Both the position numbers and the translations under genes were made by a program. A stretch of 64,000 nucleotides of DNA from Verrucomicrobiota bacterium. GTDB lineage: Bacteria > Verrucomicrobiota > Verrucomicrobiia > Chthoniobacterales > UBA10450. The notes beneath the pieces are model-generated. The model was given only the letters and a program-made list of their open reading frames with translations, searched no databases and had not been told where the DNA came from. The DNA lies in the NCBI GenBank assembly GCA_003218375.1, contig QHNH01000030.1, forward strand, positions 1 through 64,000. Direction: 5' to 3'. Below, one piece after another: positions 1 through 58,899 of this stretch (positions are counted from its first letter, which is position 1; every line of letters begins with the position of its first letter).

Positions 1-241
1 TGTTCGGCTCCCCCGCCGCTTCCCAATAGACGACGTTGCCAGCCACGGTGCCGTCCGCGAGGATGGTGTTTAGGATTCCGGTCTCGTTGGTCTCCTTACT
101 CATGATTCTGGCCCAGTGCGCCATAAAGGCGTCGCGGTCGCGGCTGGGGAACGCCGCCATACGTGTCGCCTCGGCATCCAGCTGATGCTCAAAAAAAGTC
201 GGCAGATCTTCCTTCGTGACTTCGCGGAGTGCAACAGTCAT
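1..241 (-). CDS. GNAT-family N-acetyltransferase, partial (cassette 4)
   Basis: The minus strand reads from an ATG at 241 off the left edge of the window, giving about 80 residues with no stop. The start reads MTVALREVTKEDLPTFFEHQ and continues with an EATRMAAF segment and an FMAHW segment. This is the usual N-terminal pattern of small acetyl-CoA-dependent acetyltransferases often found in gene cassettes; the acetyl-CoA-binding motif lies outside the window. The ATG is about 10 bases inside the cassette boundary left by the attC at 251-379, so this is the first gene of the fourth cassette from attI. Substrate unknown. The family call rests on N-terminal resemblance only. Confidence 0.7.
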   Translation of the reverse strand, partial: MTVALREVTKEDLPTFFEHQLDAEATRMAAFPSRDRDAFMAHWARIMSKETNETGILNTILADGTVAGNVVYWEAAGEPN

Positions 242-250
242 CCGATTCTG

Positions 251-379
251 ACCTAACGAAACACAAGATCAGCGACGGCGAGCCCGGTAAAGCGTGACTC
301 GCAGCCAAAAGGTGGATGGCAAACACGCAGGACGTAGACCGTAGGCTGGCTCGCGGTTCGCTGCATCGTTTGGTTAGAT
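251..379 (-). other. attC recombination site, cassette 3/4 boundary
   Basis: On the plus strand the site begins ACCTAAC (251-257, RYYYAAC) and ends GTTAGAT (373-379, GTTRRRY), 129 bp in all. Just inside are imperfect inverted arms, AAGATCAGCGACGGC on the left and GCGGTTCGCTGCATCG on the right, which pair with unpaired extra bases as in attC L boxes. Sequence and spacing match the attC sites at 1281 and 1774. Confidence 0.88.
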
Positions 380-380
380 C

Positions 381-758
381 TCATGGTTTGTTCAGCTGAG
401 TTCGACAGCCGCCGCAGCCCCAGCGCTGATGATCGGGATCCCAAATCAGCGGTAGTGCAACGTGCTTTGTGACGTAGCAGTTGTGGCAGATTCGCGCGCG
501 CGCGTCGCTGCGCTTCGTCATCGTTCCAGGCCACGACGAATCGGGAACGTAGCTGCGGCGATACCGGATGAACAAGCCGACAGCCAGCGCTACGAGAGAT
601 AGTGCAGCTAGGATGAGAAGTGCAAGTCGTGCTGTCGCCCTGTCTGCAGGGATGGCAAACGCCGCTGTGGAGAATAGAAACGCAAGGAGAACTAAGACTC
701 CGTGTGCGAGGCGTGTGCCAAGCTCCTTCTGGAACGACTCGATAAACGGGCTCATCAT
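381..758 (-). CDS. Two-TM protein with C-terminal zinc-ribbon-like CxxC pair (cassette 3, gene 2)
   Basis: The product is 125 residues from the ATG at 758. Two hydrophobic segments (about residues 20-38 and 45-66) are followed by a basic stretch and a cytoplasmic-looking tail with two CxxC pairs (ICHNC and CGGC) about 25 residues apart, a likely zinc ribbon. The start overlaps the stop of the preceding gene in an ATGATGA arrangement, which suggests translational coupling. The stop lies just before the attC at 251-379, as expected for a cassette gene. I do not recognise a family. Confidence 0.65.
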   Translation of the reverse strand: MMSPFIESFQKELGTRLAHGVLVLLAFLFSTAAFAIPADRATARLALLILAALSLVALAVGLFIRYRRSYVPDSSWPGTMTKRSDARARICHNCYVTKHVALPLIWDPDHQRWGCGGCRTQLNKP

Positions 759-1282
759 CGTGCAAATCCTCTGCGTATCCATCCTACGCCAATACCAAGC
801 GCGAGTGTAGCCGCGCAAGCGCCGACTGCGAAGACGAGAAACCAAACCGTCCTGCGCAATCTTGCCCTATGAACGTAGCCTGAAACGCGACCGATCATCT
901 CCGACGCCGTAATCTCTTTCTTGTCGAACACATCCAAGAAATCGCGATCTCTGAATGACCACCCGCCTGGCTCAAGCCACTGGACGCCCACCTGAGTCAC
1001 CGCGCCGCGTCCAGCGAGGGACTCCAGAGTCAGAATCGGCGAATACGGGAATTGGCCGGTAAATGTCTTCGTAGTCGCCTCCTGCTTCACGCTCTCGGCG
1101 AGTTGTCGGTCTTCGGGGTTGGCGGTATCAGATATAGTAACGCTGACAAAGGTGTAAGACACGTCGCGACCCCACACGTAAATGCTGGACACGGTAACAG
1201 TGCCGACCAGCACGAAGCAGGTCAGAACAACCCAGAGTCGTATCCATCCACTTTTGAACATGGTGTGGCGTGGCAATGACAT
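755..1282 (-). CDS. Hypothetical membrane protein with terminal TM segments (cassette 3, gene 1)
   Basis: The product is 175 residues. One hydrophobic segment lies near the N-terminus (WVVLTCFVLVGTVTV) and a second near the C-terminus (TVWFLVFAVGACAATLALGI), with a polar domain of about 100 residues between them that is probably periplasmic. The ATG at 1282 overlaps the recombined core GTTAGATG; an internal ATG at 1261 is an alternative. The stop overlaps the start of the next gene, so this cassette carries two coupled genes. No family recognised. Both proteins may act together at the membrane, but that is inference from arrangement. Confidence 0.65.
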   Translation of the reverse strand: MSLPRHTMFKSGWIRLWVVLTCFVLVGTVTVSSIYVWGRDVSYTFVSVTISDTANPEDRQLAESVKQEATTKTFTGQFPYSPILTLESLAGRGAVTQVGVQWLEPGGWSFRDRDFLDVFDKKEITASEMIGRVSGYVHRARLRRTVWFLVFAVGACAATLALGIGVGWIRRGFAR

Positions 1283-1404
1283 CTAACGAGAACAAGATGA
1301 GCGACGGCGGACGAGAACGCGTGGCGCTCGGAGTGGGAGTGGTGAAATCATCTCAAAAGTGGAGCGCACAGCGGTCCGCCCTTCGCTCCATCGCATGGTT
1401 AGGC
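1281..1404 (-). other. attC recombination site, cassette 2/3 boundary
   Basis: The plus strand starts ATCTAAC (1281-1287) and ends GTTAGGC (1398-1404), 124 bp. Inner arms GATGAGCGACGGCGG and CCGCCCTTCGCTCCATC are imperfect inverted repeats. The core boxes fit RYYYAAC/GTTRRRY, and both ends closely resemble the other two attC sites. Confidence 0.88.
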
Positions 1405-1414
1405 CTTGGCGTGC

Positions 1415-1771
1415 TCATCGACAATCACTATCGCGAGACCTCCTCGCCAGCAATACGCGATCAACGATGAACTTGCGCCGATAGCCACCCAAATGACCAT
1501 GTCTGCCGCGGGAACTGACGCGTCCACGAAGCTCAACGTAAACAGTGCCACCAACGAAACCACGAGATGATGTGACTGCAGCAATGAGCGGCTCTACACG
1601 ACCGGTGACCCACCAGCGCTCTGAACTGCCGCAAGGCTCGAGGGAACTGACCTCGAATTTTTTCTCGAATATCCCACGATAGATGCCATCGCGAGGCGGA
1701 GGCGCGCTGCCGGTGCCGAGTGCACAGCCGGCGAATGCGACTGCAATGCTTGCTACTAGGGCGATCTTCAC
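1415..1771 (-). CDS. Small lipoprotein (cassette 2)
   Basis: From a GTG at 1771, three bases after the recombined core, the product is 118 residues. It opens with a lipoprotein signal, VKIALVASIAVAFAGC, in which AFAGC is the lipobox, so it is probably exported and lipid-anchored. The C-terminal half has a YVELRG...SRGRHGHLGGY pattern followed by a short basic end with a final cysteine. I recall similar cassette-borne lipoproteins of unknown function but cannot name the family. A longer start at 1804 would lie inside attC and is less likely. The stop falls 10 bases before the attC at 1281-1404. Confidence 0.65.
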   Translation of the reverse strand: MKIALVASIAVAFAGCALGTGSAPPPRDGIYRGIFEKKFEVSSLEPCGSSERWWVTGRVEPLIAAVTSSRGFVGGTVYVELRGRVSSRGRHGHLGGYRRKFIVDRVLLARRSRDSDCR

Positions 1772-1773
1772 GG

Positions 1774-1897
1774 GCCTAACGAGAAAAAGCTGAGCGACTG
1801 CCACCGAGAGCGCGCTTGGCTTCGGCTGAAAACTGTTTTGGTCATCTTAAATGTGAACGCACGGCGGGTGGCGGTTCGCTCCAGCGCTTGGTTAGAT
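1774..1897 (-). other. attC recombination site, cassette 1/2 boundary
   Basis: The plus strand starts GCCTAAC (1774-1780) and ends GTTAGAT (1891-1897), 124 bp. Inner arms GCTGAGCGACTGCC and GGCGGTTCGCTCCAGC pair with extra unpaired bases, the asymmetry that gives attC sites their orientation. It is very like the sites at 251 and 1281, so the array is homogeneous. Confidence 0.88.
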
Positions 1898-1935
1898 GTG
1901 CGCGTGGCATACAGAGTGATCTTAGCAGGAGAGAA

Positions 1936-2202
1936 TCATAACTCGCAACGCTCTCGCACCGACTTGAGAATCGCATCATACATCTCGGGTCGCACCAAGG
2001 CAGAAATCGCCGCAGCCAACTCCGGGTCTTCTCTGTCCGATCTCATCTGCTGTGCCATCTGACGAAAGGCGGCTCGGCGCAATGAGGCTGAGAGACTCTC
2101 CAGACTAAGGAACCATGAACGAAGCGACGCATCCTCGACGAGCGCGTGAGTGAACCGAACCATACCTTCGGGAATCGGATGCCGGGCCATCGGTGACAAC
2201 AT
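1936..2202 (-). CDS. Hypothetical protein, 88 aa (cassette 1)
   Basis: This is the first cassette gene, next to the attI-like boundary. The product is 88 residues, soluble and probably mostly helical, with no signal peptide or membrane segment. The ATG at 2202 overlaps the recombined core GTTAGATG; a second ATG at 2190 is an alternative start. Its short spacing after the boundary and a stop about 40 bases before the next attC are typical of cassettes. No family recognised. Confidence 0.6.
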   Translation of the reverse strand: MLSPMARHPIPEGMVRFTHALVEDASLRSWFLSLESLSASLRRAAFRQMAQQMRSDREDPELAAAISALVRPEMYDAILKSVRERCEL

Positions 2203-2282
2203 CTAACGAGAATTAGGCCCAATAATTGGGCCTTTAAAGGCGCATTTTTGGGGTCTAATCAGCTTGAGATTCGACGGGGCGG
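2201..2282 (-). other. attI-like insertion site and integron leader region
   Basis: The core GTTAGAT on the minus strand (2207-2201) marks where cassette 1 joins the integron platform; no second attC-type core follows on the integrase side, so this is the attI side. The stretch between the boundary and the integrase remnant holds a palindrome at 2213-2231 (AGGCCCAA, spacer TAA, TTGGGCCT). The cassette promoter Pc would be expected here or inside the integrase gene, but I see no convincing -35/-10 pair. Confidence 0.6.
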
Positions 2283-2466
2283 GTGTCAGCATGGGGAGGT
2301 GAAGCTATCCCCGAGGCCGCGCCGCGCAATCCGAAACTGCTGGACCGAGTCCGGGACGCGATCCGGCTCAAGCACTACAGCATTCGAACCGAGAAGATTT
2401 ATTGCGATTGGATTCGGCGTTTCATCCTTTTTCACGGAAAGCGGCATCCGACAGAGCTCCACGAAA
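2283..2466 (+). pseudogene. intI: Integron integrase (IntI), truncated to its N-terminal ~60 codons
   Basis: Residues 18-61 of this frame show the start of the core-binding domain of integron integrases: PKLLDRVRDAIRLKHYSIRT, then EKIYCDWIRRFILFHGKRHP. Known IntI proteins have nearly the same LLxxVRxxIRxxHYSxRTE...YxxWIRRFIxFHGKRHP pattern. After HPTELHE the match stops and the frame ends at 2501, inside the last codons of rlmN. The tyrosine-recombinase catalytic domain (R-H-R-Y) and the IntI-specific extra helix are absent. It is divergent from the cassettes with its 5' end towards attI, the standard integron layout. It cannot be active; any recombination would need an integrase supplied in trans. 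Confidence 0.9.
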
Positions 2467-2493
2467 CCCTTTCGGGGCTGATCTTGGGTCTCT

Positions 2494-3588
2494 TTAGCTG
2501 ACGGCGGCGATTATAACGCCGTCTTCGCTTCGTTTCGTTTGCAAACGCAGTTGGCCGCAAGCGGCATCGATGTCGTGGCCCTTTTCGCGGCGGAGCGTCG
2601 CGACGACCTGATGGCCGCGCAAGATGGAGAGAAAACGTTCCTGCTTTTCTCGCGAAGGGCGCGACCATTCGAGGCCTTCGACCGTGTTGTAAGGGATGAG
2701 ATTGACGCGAGCGCCCAGGCGGCGGGCGTGATGGGCCAGGAGATGAGCTTGTTCTTCGGCGTCGTTAATGCCGGCGATCAAAATGTATTCGAAGTAGATG
2801 CGCTGCTTCTTGCGGCTGGCGTAGTAGTCGCAGGCGGCGAGAAGTGTCGTTAGGTTATACTTGCGGTTTATCGGCATGATCTTGTCTCGCACGTCGTCGG
2901 TCGCGCCGTGAAGGGAGATGGCGAGCCGGCTTTGGAGCGGTTCATCGGCCAACTTTCTAATTTGTGGTGCGAGGCCACTGGTGGAGACAGTGATATGGCG
3001 CGCGCCGATCTCGAGACCCCAGGGCGCGTTGATGATCCGAATGGCGCGAACGACGTTGGCGAAATTGGCCAGCGGTTCGCCCATCCCCATGAAGACCACA
3101 TTGTCGATCCGCTCACCGCTCGCTTTTTCTACCGCGAGCAGTTGCTGCACGATTTCGCTCGCGTCGAGGTTCCGCGAAAATCCGTCGAGACCGCTCGCGC
3201 AAAATTTACAACCGTAAGCACAGCCGACCTGGGTGGAAACGCAAATGGTGCGGCGGTCCGAGGTGGAGCCATAAAGCGAAGGCGAAGCGGGGATCAGGAC
3301 CGATTCGATGAGGTTTCCATCGCCGAGCCGAAAGAGAAATTTTCGCGTCGTGTCCTGCGAGCCGAGAACGCGGACGGTTTCGAAATTACCGAACGCAAAC
3401 TCTTGCGCGAGCCGTTCGCGCAACGCCTGCGGCAAATCGCTCATCTCGTTGAACCCACCCACGCGCCTTTGGTAGAGCCAATCCACAATCTGTTTCGCGC
3501 GGTACGGGCGCTCGTTCTGGGTGGCGAGATAATCGGTTATCTCGTCGAGGACAAGCGAATGGATCGATCGTTTGCCGGTTGTCTGCAC
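2494..3588 (-). CDS. rlmN: 23S rRNA (adenine-2503-C2)/tRNA methyltransferase, radical SAM
   Basis: The 364-residue protein is full length for the family. It methylates C2 of A2503 in 23S rRNA (and A37 of some tRNAs) by a dual-SAM radical mechanism in the cytoplasm. The radical-SAM cluster motif is C123-x3-C127-x2-C130 in VGCAYGCKFCASG. The SAM-binding motif MGMGEPLAN follows, and C344 (in DAACGQLR) is placed as the catalytic cysteine near the C-terminus. No neighbour forms an operon with it. Its 3' end directly abuts the truncated integron integrase on the opposite strand, so a deletion or insertion joint lies at about 2467-2501. Confidence 0.95.
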   Translation of the reverse strand: MQTTGKRSIHSLVLDEITDYLATQNERPYRAKQIVDWLYQRRVGGFNEMSDLPQALRERLAQEFAFGNFETVRVLGSQDTTRKFLFRLGDGNLIESVLIPASPSLYGSTSDRRTICVSTQVGCAYGCKFCASGLDGFSRNLDASEIVQQLLAVEKASGERIDNVVFMGMGEPLANFANVVRAIRIINAPWGLEIGARHITVSTSGLAPQIRKLADEPLQSRLAISLHGATDDVRDKIMPINRKYNLTTLLAACDYYASRKKQRIYFEYILIAGINDAEEQAHLLAHHARRLGARVNLIPYNTVEGLEWSRPSREKQERFLSILRGHQVVATLRREKGHDIDAACGQLRLQTKRSEDGVIIAAVS

Positions 3589-30646: not shown

Positions 30647-31435
30647 CTATTCGTCGCTCTCCAACCGCGCGCGGTAGGAAACAAATCCGCGCTTACCGGC
30701 GCTCGCGACGAAATCGAAAAATTCGCAGCCTAACGAACCAAATTTCAATTCGCGCGCCTTCTCCGCAGCCTGCGTTCTATTGAGTCCGCTCAGGTAAAGA
30801 AGTTTGAAGGCGCGCTTGATTTCATCGCGCTCGGCTGCGCTCAGCCCGGCGCGTCGCAAGCCGACGCTGTTGATGCCGAGCGCATAATTCGCGACGGCGG
30901 TGACGAACGGCGGAACGCTTCTGGTGGTGCGTCCCTGTGCCAGAGCGAGACGCCCGACCCGGACGTGCTGATGAAACATCGAGCCGCCACCGAGGAACGC
31001 TCCATCGCCGACATGGACGTGACCGCCAAGCAAGGAATCGTTTGCCATCACCACGTCGTTACCCACCCGGCTATCGTGACCAAGATGCGCGCCGACGAGC
31101 AGAAAATTACGATCGCCCAGGATCGTCGCGCTTCCATCGGTGCTGCCGCGGTGGATAGTGCAATGCTCACGAATGATGTTGCCATTGCCAACCTCGACTC
31201 CGCTTTGCGTTCTCGGATTGAATTTCAAATCTTGCGGCGTCGTCCCGATGATCGTGCCGTGACCGATAGAATTTTGCGTTCCCATTTTCACGGCGCCTTC
31301 GATCACGACATGCGATTGGATGATGCAGTTATCTCCGATGATCGCGTCCCTGCTTACGATCGAATAGGGGCCAATCTCGACGTCAAGGCCGAGCTGCGCT
31401 TGCGGATCGACAATTGCGGTCGGATGAATTTTCAC
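30647..31435 (-). CDS. lpxA: UDP-N-acetylglucosamine acyltransferase
   Basis: The 262-residue protein has the left-handed beta-helix hexapeptide repeats typical of LpxA from the N-terminus (IHPTAIVDPQAQLGLDVEIG) to about residue 185, then the C-terminal helical domain. The catalytic histidine lies in LLVGAHLGHDSRVGN. LpxA adds the 3-hydroxyacyl chain to UDP-GlcNAc, the first step of lipid A synthesis, which supports a Gram-negative envelope. It overlaps radC by four bases. Confidence 0.94.
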   Translation of the reverse strand: MKIHPTAIVDPQAQLGLDVEIGPYSIVSRDAIIGDNCIIQSHVVIEGAVKMGTQNSIGHGTIIGTTPQDLKFNPRTQSGVEVGNGNIIREHCTIHRGSTDGSATILGDRNFLLVGAHLGHDSRVGNDVVMANDSLLGGHVHVGDGAFLGGGSMFHQHVRVGRLALAQGRTTRSVPPFVTAVANYALGINSVGLRRAGLSAAERDEIKRAFKLLYLSGLNRTQAAEKARELKFGSLGCEFFDFVASAGKRGFVSYRARLESDE

Positions 31436-56605: not shown

Positions 56606-58899
56606 TCAGAAGCTGCTTCGGACCGGCAGCTTCTGAATCGGAGGATTGCCCGGGATTCCGAGCTGACCGGATTGATTGTCTCCCGTGACGAAGACAGCTC
56701 GATCTGTGTAACGTATCATCACGCTGTAATTCGGTCCGGCCGCGAGATCGCTGATGTTGTTCATCCCGTTGGGCCCGGCGTTCATAGCCGCAGGCGATGC
56801 CTGAATGACACTCGTAAAGCCGAGGCCCAGCTGTCCCCGGCCGTTATAACCCCAACCATACACGTTTCCATCCGAGCTGTGGGCGATACAATGAGCCGCC
56901 CCCGCCGCAATCACATCGATCGAATTTCCCGGGCCAACGGGGATGGGAATCGCGAACGCAGAAGAACCCCCGGGAGCGGTGCCAAGCTGCGAAAAGGAGT
57001 TGTTACCCCAGCCGTAAACCGTTCCGCCTCGACCGAGCGCGATACAAAACCCGGACGAACCGCAGACCACCTGCGTTAAACCGACCAAGGTAACACCTTG
57101 ATTACTAGAGTTAGCCGTCATCACTTGGACGGGATACGATTGGTCGTCCGTAAAACCATTCCCCAGGGCGCCGTTCGCTCCTGCTCCCCAAGTCCAAATC
57201 GTGGCGTCGGCATCGATCGCGGCCAGGGTACCTCCACCCGCGGCGATCGATACAATGCCAGTGAGATAATCGTTGGGGCCTGAACTCTTCCTTACTCGCG
57301 CGGGAGTGTAATGGGAGGTGGTCGTCCCATCACCAAGACGCCCGTTCCAGTTTGCGCCCCAGGTCCACACCTGGCCGTCCGTGTCTATAGCGGCGTAGGC
57401 GGAAGTGCCAATCGCCACGACATGTTTACCGCCGCGGGTTGGCGTCGTGATATGAGCGGGTAGCGGGACTTGAACTGGACTTGCGATGTTGCCGCCAGTT
57501 GTTCCGTCGCCGCGTGCGCCGTATTGATTCGATCCCCAGACCCACAAAGAACCGTCGTTCTTCACCGCGAAAGAAGTGTAATCCCCGGCCGCCACCTCTG
57601 TCACCGTGTTATCCAGGCTGGAAATGTGCGTGGGGGGTGACGGTGATGCCACAGTCCCAAGCTGGCTGAAGATGTTTTGACCGGAGGCATTGACGTTTCG
57701 GTTTGTAGTAACGAGCAGATGCTGCATCCCAGAGGCTGGTCTCGTGACCGTGCCTCTACCTTCGCTCCGGCCGGAGTTCAGGTAATGGTCGATCGCCCCT
57801 TGATAGTTCGTCGCCCCAAACGCGTTCGCGATATCCGGATTTAGTTGTAGATATTGCACAGGGGAGAAGGTCTTCGATCCGGCTCTGCCTTGAGGTACGC
57901 CGGAGTTGATCCAATGGTCTTCTGCCGCCCTCAGGTTCGGAACGGCACCCTGCAGCTGGTTGATGCTGACATAGTCGCGCCAATTAAATACATCGGGATC
58001 CAGGGCGCGGAATTGGTAATGCAGCGTATTTAAGGCACTCTTGACCTGATCCATATTGCCGATCACCAGGTACGATCGATCGCTTCTGTTTCCGGGTCCG
58101 TTGAAGCTTTCGAAACGAAGTTGCCCGCCAAAACCTGCGCATGGGAAATCGGGATCCGGATGATTCGGATTTGGAGGAGCCAGGCCCCACCTGTAACCAC
58201 CCTCGCTGCCAGTCCCATACGGTTGGAGCAGCTCCGCCGAGTAATAACCCATGGCGTAGGTGCCATCGGCCGTTGCTAATACTTTTACACTATCGTCTTC
58301 TCCGCCAAGCGAGCGTATCTGCCGGTAATTTTTCGAAACGTGGTCGTACGTCCAGACCGAGGAGAATTCCCACGGCAGGACCGCGGTCATCTGCACGACA
58401 CCTTTCTGGACCTGCTCGGGAATAAACAGAGCGGGCCGGTGTAGGAAGGACATGGCAGGAATTCGGCGGGGTTGCCGCACACGTCTCCGTATCCTGGCCT
58501 CGGTTCGCGCGTTGACAGGTACCAAGACATTTGGGTTGTAGAGTCCAAGATGTTCCCGCCAGCCGTGAGCGATAAGACACGGCTGGAGCTGGTCGGCTTT
58601 TGTCCATCTTCCTTGGTGCCGGTTTCGTAAGGGTTATAGCATTCGTTTCGATTGAAGAATGACGCATTCGTGGAGATCTGACGCCCGTGGTCCCAATTAT
58701 TCACGAACTCTTTTCCCTGCCATTGGATGGAAGATATACCGCCTCCGAATTGACTCGACGTCTTGACGGTTAGAGGTAGTCCTAGAACCGGAGCTGTGAT
58801 GCTGGAATCGCCGCTGACTTGCGCATGAACAGCCGCCGCTCCACAGAGTAAAGCGCCTACGATTCCGGTGATTGCGCCACCTCGATGAATGGTTCGCAT
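56606..58899 (-). pseudogene. Secreted RCC1-repeat protein, disrupted by a frameshift at about 58440-58455
   Basis: Two frames belong together. The first (58899-58387) has a signal peptide (MRTIHRGGAITGIVGALLCG) and a beta-rich start down to GNPAEFLPCP. The second (to 56606) becomes protein-like at SFLHRPALFIPEQVQKGVVQ. Its middle has two YLQLNPDIANAFGATNYQG-type units. The C-terminal half is at least six RCC1 repeats (SLWVWGSNQYGARGDG, QVWTWGANWNGRLGDG, TVYGWGNNSFSQLG), which form a beta-propeller. The joint protein would be about 760 residues. The domain mix suggests a surface protein. A sequencing error is possible. Confidence 0.7.

Follow-up and report, generated by a model that had tools for sequence, protein, structure and literature searches.

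At the left end of one contig from a bacterium of the Chthoniobacterales (Spartobacteria), a row of gene cassettes ends at the stump of an integrase gene. This locus raises the question of whether an integron has died in place there, and of how the other cassette clusters of the same genome, which count as integrase-less, arose. The window, i.e. the whole stretch of DNA analysed, comprises 64,000 nucleotides (nt) and corresponds to C32:1-64000 (QHNH01000030.1); the host assembly, G000, has 3.96 Mb in 52 contigs and is 97.8% complete. In a comparison of its rlmN gene, the closest named relatives are metagenome-assembled genomes (MAGs) of Spartobacteria or Chthoniobacterales, at 89% and below, which puts the host in the phylum Verrucomicrobiota. 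With a probability of roughly nine in ten, the platform represents the remains of a chromosomal integron between rlmN and the gene for a MocR-type regulator. The preliminary description of the window had spoken of an inactivated chromosomal integron with a homogeneous cassette array, and this stood up: an attC model matches, the integrase remnant matches its family, and the genome holds no full intI. That the integron is dead is firmly supported; by itself, it adds one more example to a known pattern.

The cassette side rests on the attC sites. A covariance model (R1), built from 19 attC sites on other contigs of the host genome and none from the window, matches three sites on the minus strand, at 1774-1897 (114.3 bits, E = 6.3e-29), 1281-1404 (114.1 bits, E = 7.4e-29) and 251-379 (73.5 bits, E = 6.5e-18), with the caveat that the 19 training sites were first located by a half-site pattern made from these same three. 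The pattern has 39 matches in the host genome, including the three of the window, and its reversed control has none. All sites that had been singled out for their matching core boxes and paired inner arms, and for which a covariance test had been proposed, were thus recovered. The next-best R1 match in the 64 kb reaches 15.1 bits (E = 0.041); it lies at 31069-31160, is weak and is probably due to chance. An Rfam scan of the window at the gathering threshold returned tRNA only. The three sites have common R and L boxes and a mean column identity of 76%. In the minus-strand reading, the 5' L arm contains an extra base, from which the cassettes are read as running leftwards, away from the divergent IntI fragment, as had been stated. 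Folded as single-stranded DNA on the minus strand, two of the three sites do better than shuffles (z = -3.07 and -2.98). Across 61 sites the stem covaries, with 95.4% of cells paired (0 of 500 shuffles as high) and 160 cells with changes in both partners, where shuffles give 54.7 ± 4.7, in an alignment that was itself fitted to R1. In 12 loci of relatives that bear integrase genes, R1 gives 64 rows; once 7 repeats on the opposite strand are discounted, 57 distinct attC sites remain. In 26 rlmN loci of relatives (L103-L128, 420 kb), it has one weak match only (21.4 bits, E = 0.0053). In the whole host genome, it has at least 39 matches at E ≤ 0.001 (150 of 2344 candidates scored). A separate tally of the clusters amounts to 40 attC sites in 18 clusters, one of them the site at C2:9560-9698.

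The integrase side consists of a stub. On the plus strand, positions 2283-2465 encode the N-terminal part of an integron integrase (PRK15417 and TIGR02249 of NCBIfam, PF13495 of Pfam), in a frame that stays open to 2501. Residues 13-60 of the piece 2283-2501 match PRK15417 (5.6e-13), and residues 19-62 match positions 1-44 of the 315 of TIGR02249 (3.8e-11). No other NCBIfam family matches at E ≤ 1; integron integrases are the only ones found there, where another tyrosine recombinase had been considered as a possible better fit. The stub stops near codon 61, and its nucleotide likeness to the intact intI genes of relatives ends at 2450-2465 in most of them. It ends long before the catalytic domain, and judging from the sequence no recombination in cis would be expected. 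The locus has the other hallmarks of an integron, namely attC sites with R and L boxes, pairing arms and an extra base in one L arm, and an attI adjoining intI with the crossover core GTTRRRY. Of intI itself only the stub is present, with about 44 of 315 profile positions left, so that the earlier phrase of a complete integron platform with a dead integrase was right about the integrase and generous about completeness. With at least two attC sites and no neighbouring intact intI, the locus also fits the definition of a cluster of attC sites lacking integron-integrases (CALIN), one with an intI stub present.

A profile search of the host genome found no integrase over the family cut-off (265 bits), and thus no second intact intI of the kind that had been suggested for a search. 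Five matches were obtained at E ≤ 0.001, four of which correspond to two other recombinase genes, of a kind that also scores in all 14 control genomes; tblastn of the IntI fragment against these two loci (L001-L004) gave no match at 1e-4. Intact intI genes over the cut-off occur in 33 of 83 genomes of the family, including five of seven congeners; intI genes that are incomplete or have a broken frame are frequent there as well. Two congeners, G024 and G026, have no intI match at E ≤ 1e-30, yet they harbour 15 and 36 attC sites, respectively.

Next to the stub, at 2203-2268 (plus strand), lies a hairpin with the cassettes to its left. It is matched with 61.8 bits (E = 5.7e-14) by R2, a covariance model of the attI hairpin made from the sequences of 13 relatives, and the same region aligns with the attI regions of relatives' intact integrons; the attI-like boundary seen earlier is thereby confirmed. 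The crossover core GTTAGAT is read on the minus strand at 2201-2207, and in the attI alignment the arrangement CTAAC GAGAA TTAG represents L and R boxes around the crossover, the boxes being named by analogy with class 1. The window's hairpin forms 17 of 21 pairs. Among the 13 relatives, the arms differ yet remain complementary (74.4% of cells paired, compared with 31-40% in slid controls), and they covary (0.391 against 0.222 ± 0.026, 0 of 500 shuffles), although the covariation leans towards structure because the training sequences were picked for carrying CTAACGAGA and the pairing register was picked by eye. Palindromes can stay alike through copying errors at hairpins, and the covariation is therefore no proof of function. 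It shows conserved palindromy in the aligned sequences, not how IntI would read attI. The outer end of the hairpin reads GGTTG, GATTG or other, not GTTAG, leaving no R'' box to pair with R', which is why the hairpin is not filed as an attC.

Both ends of the platform are eroded. To the right, the ancestral neighbour rlmN (2494-3588, minus strand; TIGR00048, 416 bits) is abutted at its stop codon by the 3' half of an attC, with L' and R' boxes, at 2477-2497 (plus strand), which likely starts near 2468. This half site agrees at 20 of 21 positions with the corresponding half of the attC at C42:187755-187876 (expected 0.00), and its local score of 20.0 exceeds the null maximum of 17.5 from 1500 windows. 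It is oriented opposite to the array, and intI runs straight into it. A relative (L106) has a core-like AGCTAAC at the same place of rlmN. To the left, the window's edge is the contig end, and it overlaps the end of contig C2 by 132 nt with 1 mismatch. The partial fourth cassette (1-256, minus strand) carries the 5' part of a gene for a GNAT acetyltransferase, starting at 241, which is finished on C2 to give 166 amino acids in total (PF13302 on the C2 part, 5.1e-15) and is followed by its attC at C2:95918-96041. Past this site, the array has a fifth cassette, of which about 40 codons are left before it passes into MocR; similarity to MocR is lost at residue 415 of 553. The MocR gene is a pseudogene (C2:94633-95787, L075) with an in-frame stop and without its C-terminal 138 residues, located at the array's left break. 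In relatives (L104, L105 and L069), MocR adjoins rlmN; a gene termed wdey is found in 25 of the rlmN loci compared and lies on C2 in the host genome, where the ancestral neighbours of rlmN comprise wdey, a sigma factor gene and MocR. Contig overlap and gene order agree and so support the join. After it, the array totals four complete cassettes with matching attC sites and a cut fifth. The count of three complete cassettes and a partial one had been correct inside the window, and the array does continue past the left edge as expected, only to complete cassette 4 and add the cut fifth.

A history that would account for these ends begins with an active IntI that may once have inserted cassettes at this locus. 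One cassette would have been inserted off target, at the core-like sequence of the rlmN stop codon. Later deletions would have taken away the distal array and all but a small part of intI, and the half attC would fit such an insertion followed by a deletion into intI. As the catalytic domain lies well beyond the end of the stub, the array would now be immobile in cis, and only an integrase provided in trans could move its cassettes.

The hairpin is not confined to this locus. In the host genome, R2 has 22 matches at E ≤ 0.01, corresponding to 17 distinct hairpins; for 13 of them, R1 finds an attC within the 1.5 kb examined on the cassette side. The hairpin at C21:56226 has a broken attC at 56677, that at C27:95728 a weak attC only (E = 0.18 with filters off), and those at C42:70599 and C10:172524 have no attC on the cassette side over the same distance. 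Of the 18 clusters, 14 have a hairpin at their head and two more a weak one (C51 and C19:197 kb, E = 0.064 and 0.074); the remaining two, C42:186 kb and C28:172 kb, have no R2 match at all. The clusters that count as integrase-less in this genome are thus shown to carry mostly an attI-type head. A candidate weak attC of 25 bits at C40:13035-13103 was rejected, since it is an attI-type hairpin. Clear integrase DNA is present at only two of the 17 hairpins, the window's and C21:56226, and tblastn with eight integrases at the 17 found intI only beside the window's site. By nucleotide comparison, C21:56226-56291 (L254, L079) is a near copy of the window's attI and intI start (160 of 172 columns match). 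Its intI stub is cut after about 13 codons, unlike that of the window, and its first attC is broken; it is plainly a second relic of the same platform. At C19:264621, a doubtful 23-nt match (E = 0.007) to DNA beside a relative's intI was obtained.

In the family, R2 matches 26 of 30 integrase loci, or 15 of 19 when the 11 training sequences are set aside. The hairpin lies 5' of intI in 19 loci, with divergent cassettes, and 3' of intI in seven, with cassettes co-directional with intI; in all 26, it is located between intI and the cassettes, with its core facing away from intI. An attI just past the 3' end of intI, with co-directional cassettes, is seen at L020, L021, L026, L028, L029, L030 and L034. 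L029 has a second attI-type hairpin (1468-1533) 5' of intI with its core facing the gene, as if intI were in first-cassette position. No R2 match was found at the integrase loci L014, L019, L023 and L027, of which L014 and L019 are cut by contig ends. In the order outside the family, one of the five integrase loci given to R2 (L186-L190) has the hairpin (L186), and inspection of upstream regions from other families revealed no further clear case. The best 30 R2 loci in the family comprise 12 with intI-like DNA nearby (in one case only 25 residues) and 18 without, some of them cut by contig ends. Of 213 genomes of the order, 27 have a conserved 64-nt hairpin class, with 44 occurrences in total and none in a reversed control; this class was considered as one of orphan sites only, which was rejected because 5 of 30 loci examined have intI, each at the outer side of the hairpin.

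Several points weigh against reading the locus as the remains of an integron. The attC at 1774-1897, taken alone, folds no better than shuffles (z = +0.43), the one mismatch of the half attC falls on the crossover base, and the history of the two breaks is inferred from one genome. At the given completeness, an intI contig may be split or missing. The overlap with C2 might conceivably stem from the same cassette being present twice, but the neighbouring genes argue against this. The poor folding of one attC would also suit a chance occurrence of palindromes beside a stray tyrosine recombinase fragment, an explanation of negligible probability that is contradicted by the integrase family match, the R1 matches in the window and in relatives, and the covariation of the stem. 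The hairpin might also be a transcription terminator or an element of a 5' untranslated region that lies in attI by chance and takes no part in recombination. A terminator-like site is found at 2215-2233 on the minus strand (one found, shuffle mean 0.4), and transcription would pass through the region before reaching the first cassette; a scan of 2150-2600 for sigma-70 showed no promoter-like site. This reading is unlikely, given the weak T tract and the constant placement of the hairpin, on whichever side of the gene, between intI and the cassettes with the core pointing away from intI.

For the other hairpin-headed clusters, two origins compete. They may all be relics of integrons that reached many loci by arrival or copying and lost intI at each of them while attI and cassettes stayed behind, or many of them may never have had an intI of their own, the hairpin being a discrete docking site at which an IntI encoded elsewhere inserts cassettes. 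Loss is documented by the window's locus and C21:56226, near-identical relics whose stubs end at different points, and it agrees with the frequency of partial and frame-broken intI genes in the family and with selective intI loss in Xanthomonas, as treated in part of PMC12444791; it does not fit well with the 15 of 17 sites at which no clear trace of intI is seen. The same scarcity favours docking, as only two of the 17 hairpins, 13 of which have a cassette-side attC, have clear intI DNA, and the right-hand flanks of the other sites are related neither to each other nor to intI. Among 18 listed R2 sites in congeners, six lie beside a known intI, and the other 12 all head an attC cluster, with intI pieces at one of them. 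At C42:285314, the flanking genes are 57 nt apart in a congener but 802 nt apart in the host, where a hairpin and one cassette without intI lie between them, although the intergenic ends align too poorly to fix exact borders. Furthermore, R2 matches 72 of 83 genomes of the family, whereas intI over the cut-off occurs in 33. Free docking sites should, however, be common, whereas only two of 17 are without an attC. At least the sites on C32 and C21 plainly lost an intI, and the match at C19:264621 points the same way. Every hairpin class adjoins intI somewhere, the 64-nt class included, and the contig ends of MAGs hide flanks. Since almost every hairpin is occupied and two or more are relics, the loss of intI at each locus is favoured and appears fairly probable; docking in trans is a live alternative, possible rather than probable. 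A wider proposal, that the attI of this family is a hairpin with varying but complementary arms, perhaps read partly by its fold like attC, and that the same hairpin serves as an orphan docking site supplied by IntI in trans, is doubtful at present.

The cassettes of the window all lie on the minus strand. Cassette 1 (1780-2206, delimited by core boxes) has an open reading frame (ORF) at 1936-2202 for 88 amino acids, without a Pfam match over the cut-off. The ORF of cassette 2 (1287-1779) lies at 1415-1771, starts with GTG and belongs to no Pfam family; we take the N-terminus of its product to be lipoprotein-like. Cassette 3 (257-1286) has two ORFs, 755-1282 and 381-755, again without a Pfam match over the cut-off. 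At 253-765, a long minus-strand frame runs through the third attC and acquires a tail with MQRTAS, and similar read-through tails recur in the host genome (MERTADR, L075:8208-8543). Such tails might explain some unusual C-termini of annotated proteins.

The right end of the platform recalls attG insertions, which are reportedly to be credited to Loot et al. 2024. As portrayed in passages of PMC12901181 and PMC12444791, these place cassettes away from the intI-linked attI, an event that the half attC beside the rlmN stop would fit; the host's other clusters differ from them in beginning at a recurring hairpin and not at varied genomic sequence. Closest to the window are the sedentary chromosomal integrons of Xanthomonas with inactivated intI, which, according to parts of PMC12444791 and PMC8618304, likewise combine a truncated or deleted intI with a retained homogeneous array, with clusters elsewhere. 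In contrast to these, the host belongs to another phylum, both ends are eroded, the attI hairpin covaries, and other clusters also have an attI-type hairpin. By the CALIN rule of IntegronFinder 2.0, as worded in the relevant passage of PMC9024848, the host's other clusters with at least two attC sites qualify, and probably the window locus; that wording is silent on attI, whereas attI-type hairpins head most of the clusters here. Delta-attI-type cassettes, in the account given in part of PMC12901181, also have attI parts away from an integrase, but there, in class 1 and 2 arrays, these parts are found at the cassettes' 3' end, while here a whole attI hairpin stands at the 5' head. A literature search yielded no paper joining integron and Chthoniobacter and, in the single paper it listed for the phrase "orphan attI", no use of that phrase; among the titles listed, none dealt with a folded attI or attI-headed CALINs.

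The origin of CALINs is debated, with off-target insertion, loss of intI and rearrangement under discussion in the part of PMC8618304 concerned. CALINs are counted by attC alone, and an attI that can be searched for across a whole bacterial family makes the question of their origin testable. Most clusters found in this host have an attI-type site at their start, an argument against random off-target insertion as their chief origin. A functional hairpin would also bear on the recognition of attI by IntI, which for class 1, in the passages of PMC4792948 that treat it, is described as double-stranded and sequence-specific. If orphan docking is true, the integrase-less clusters would be multi-site integrons rather than debris.

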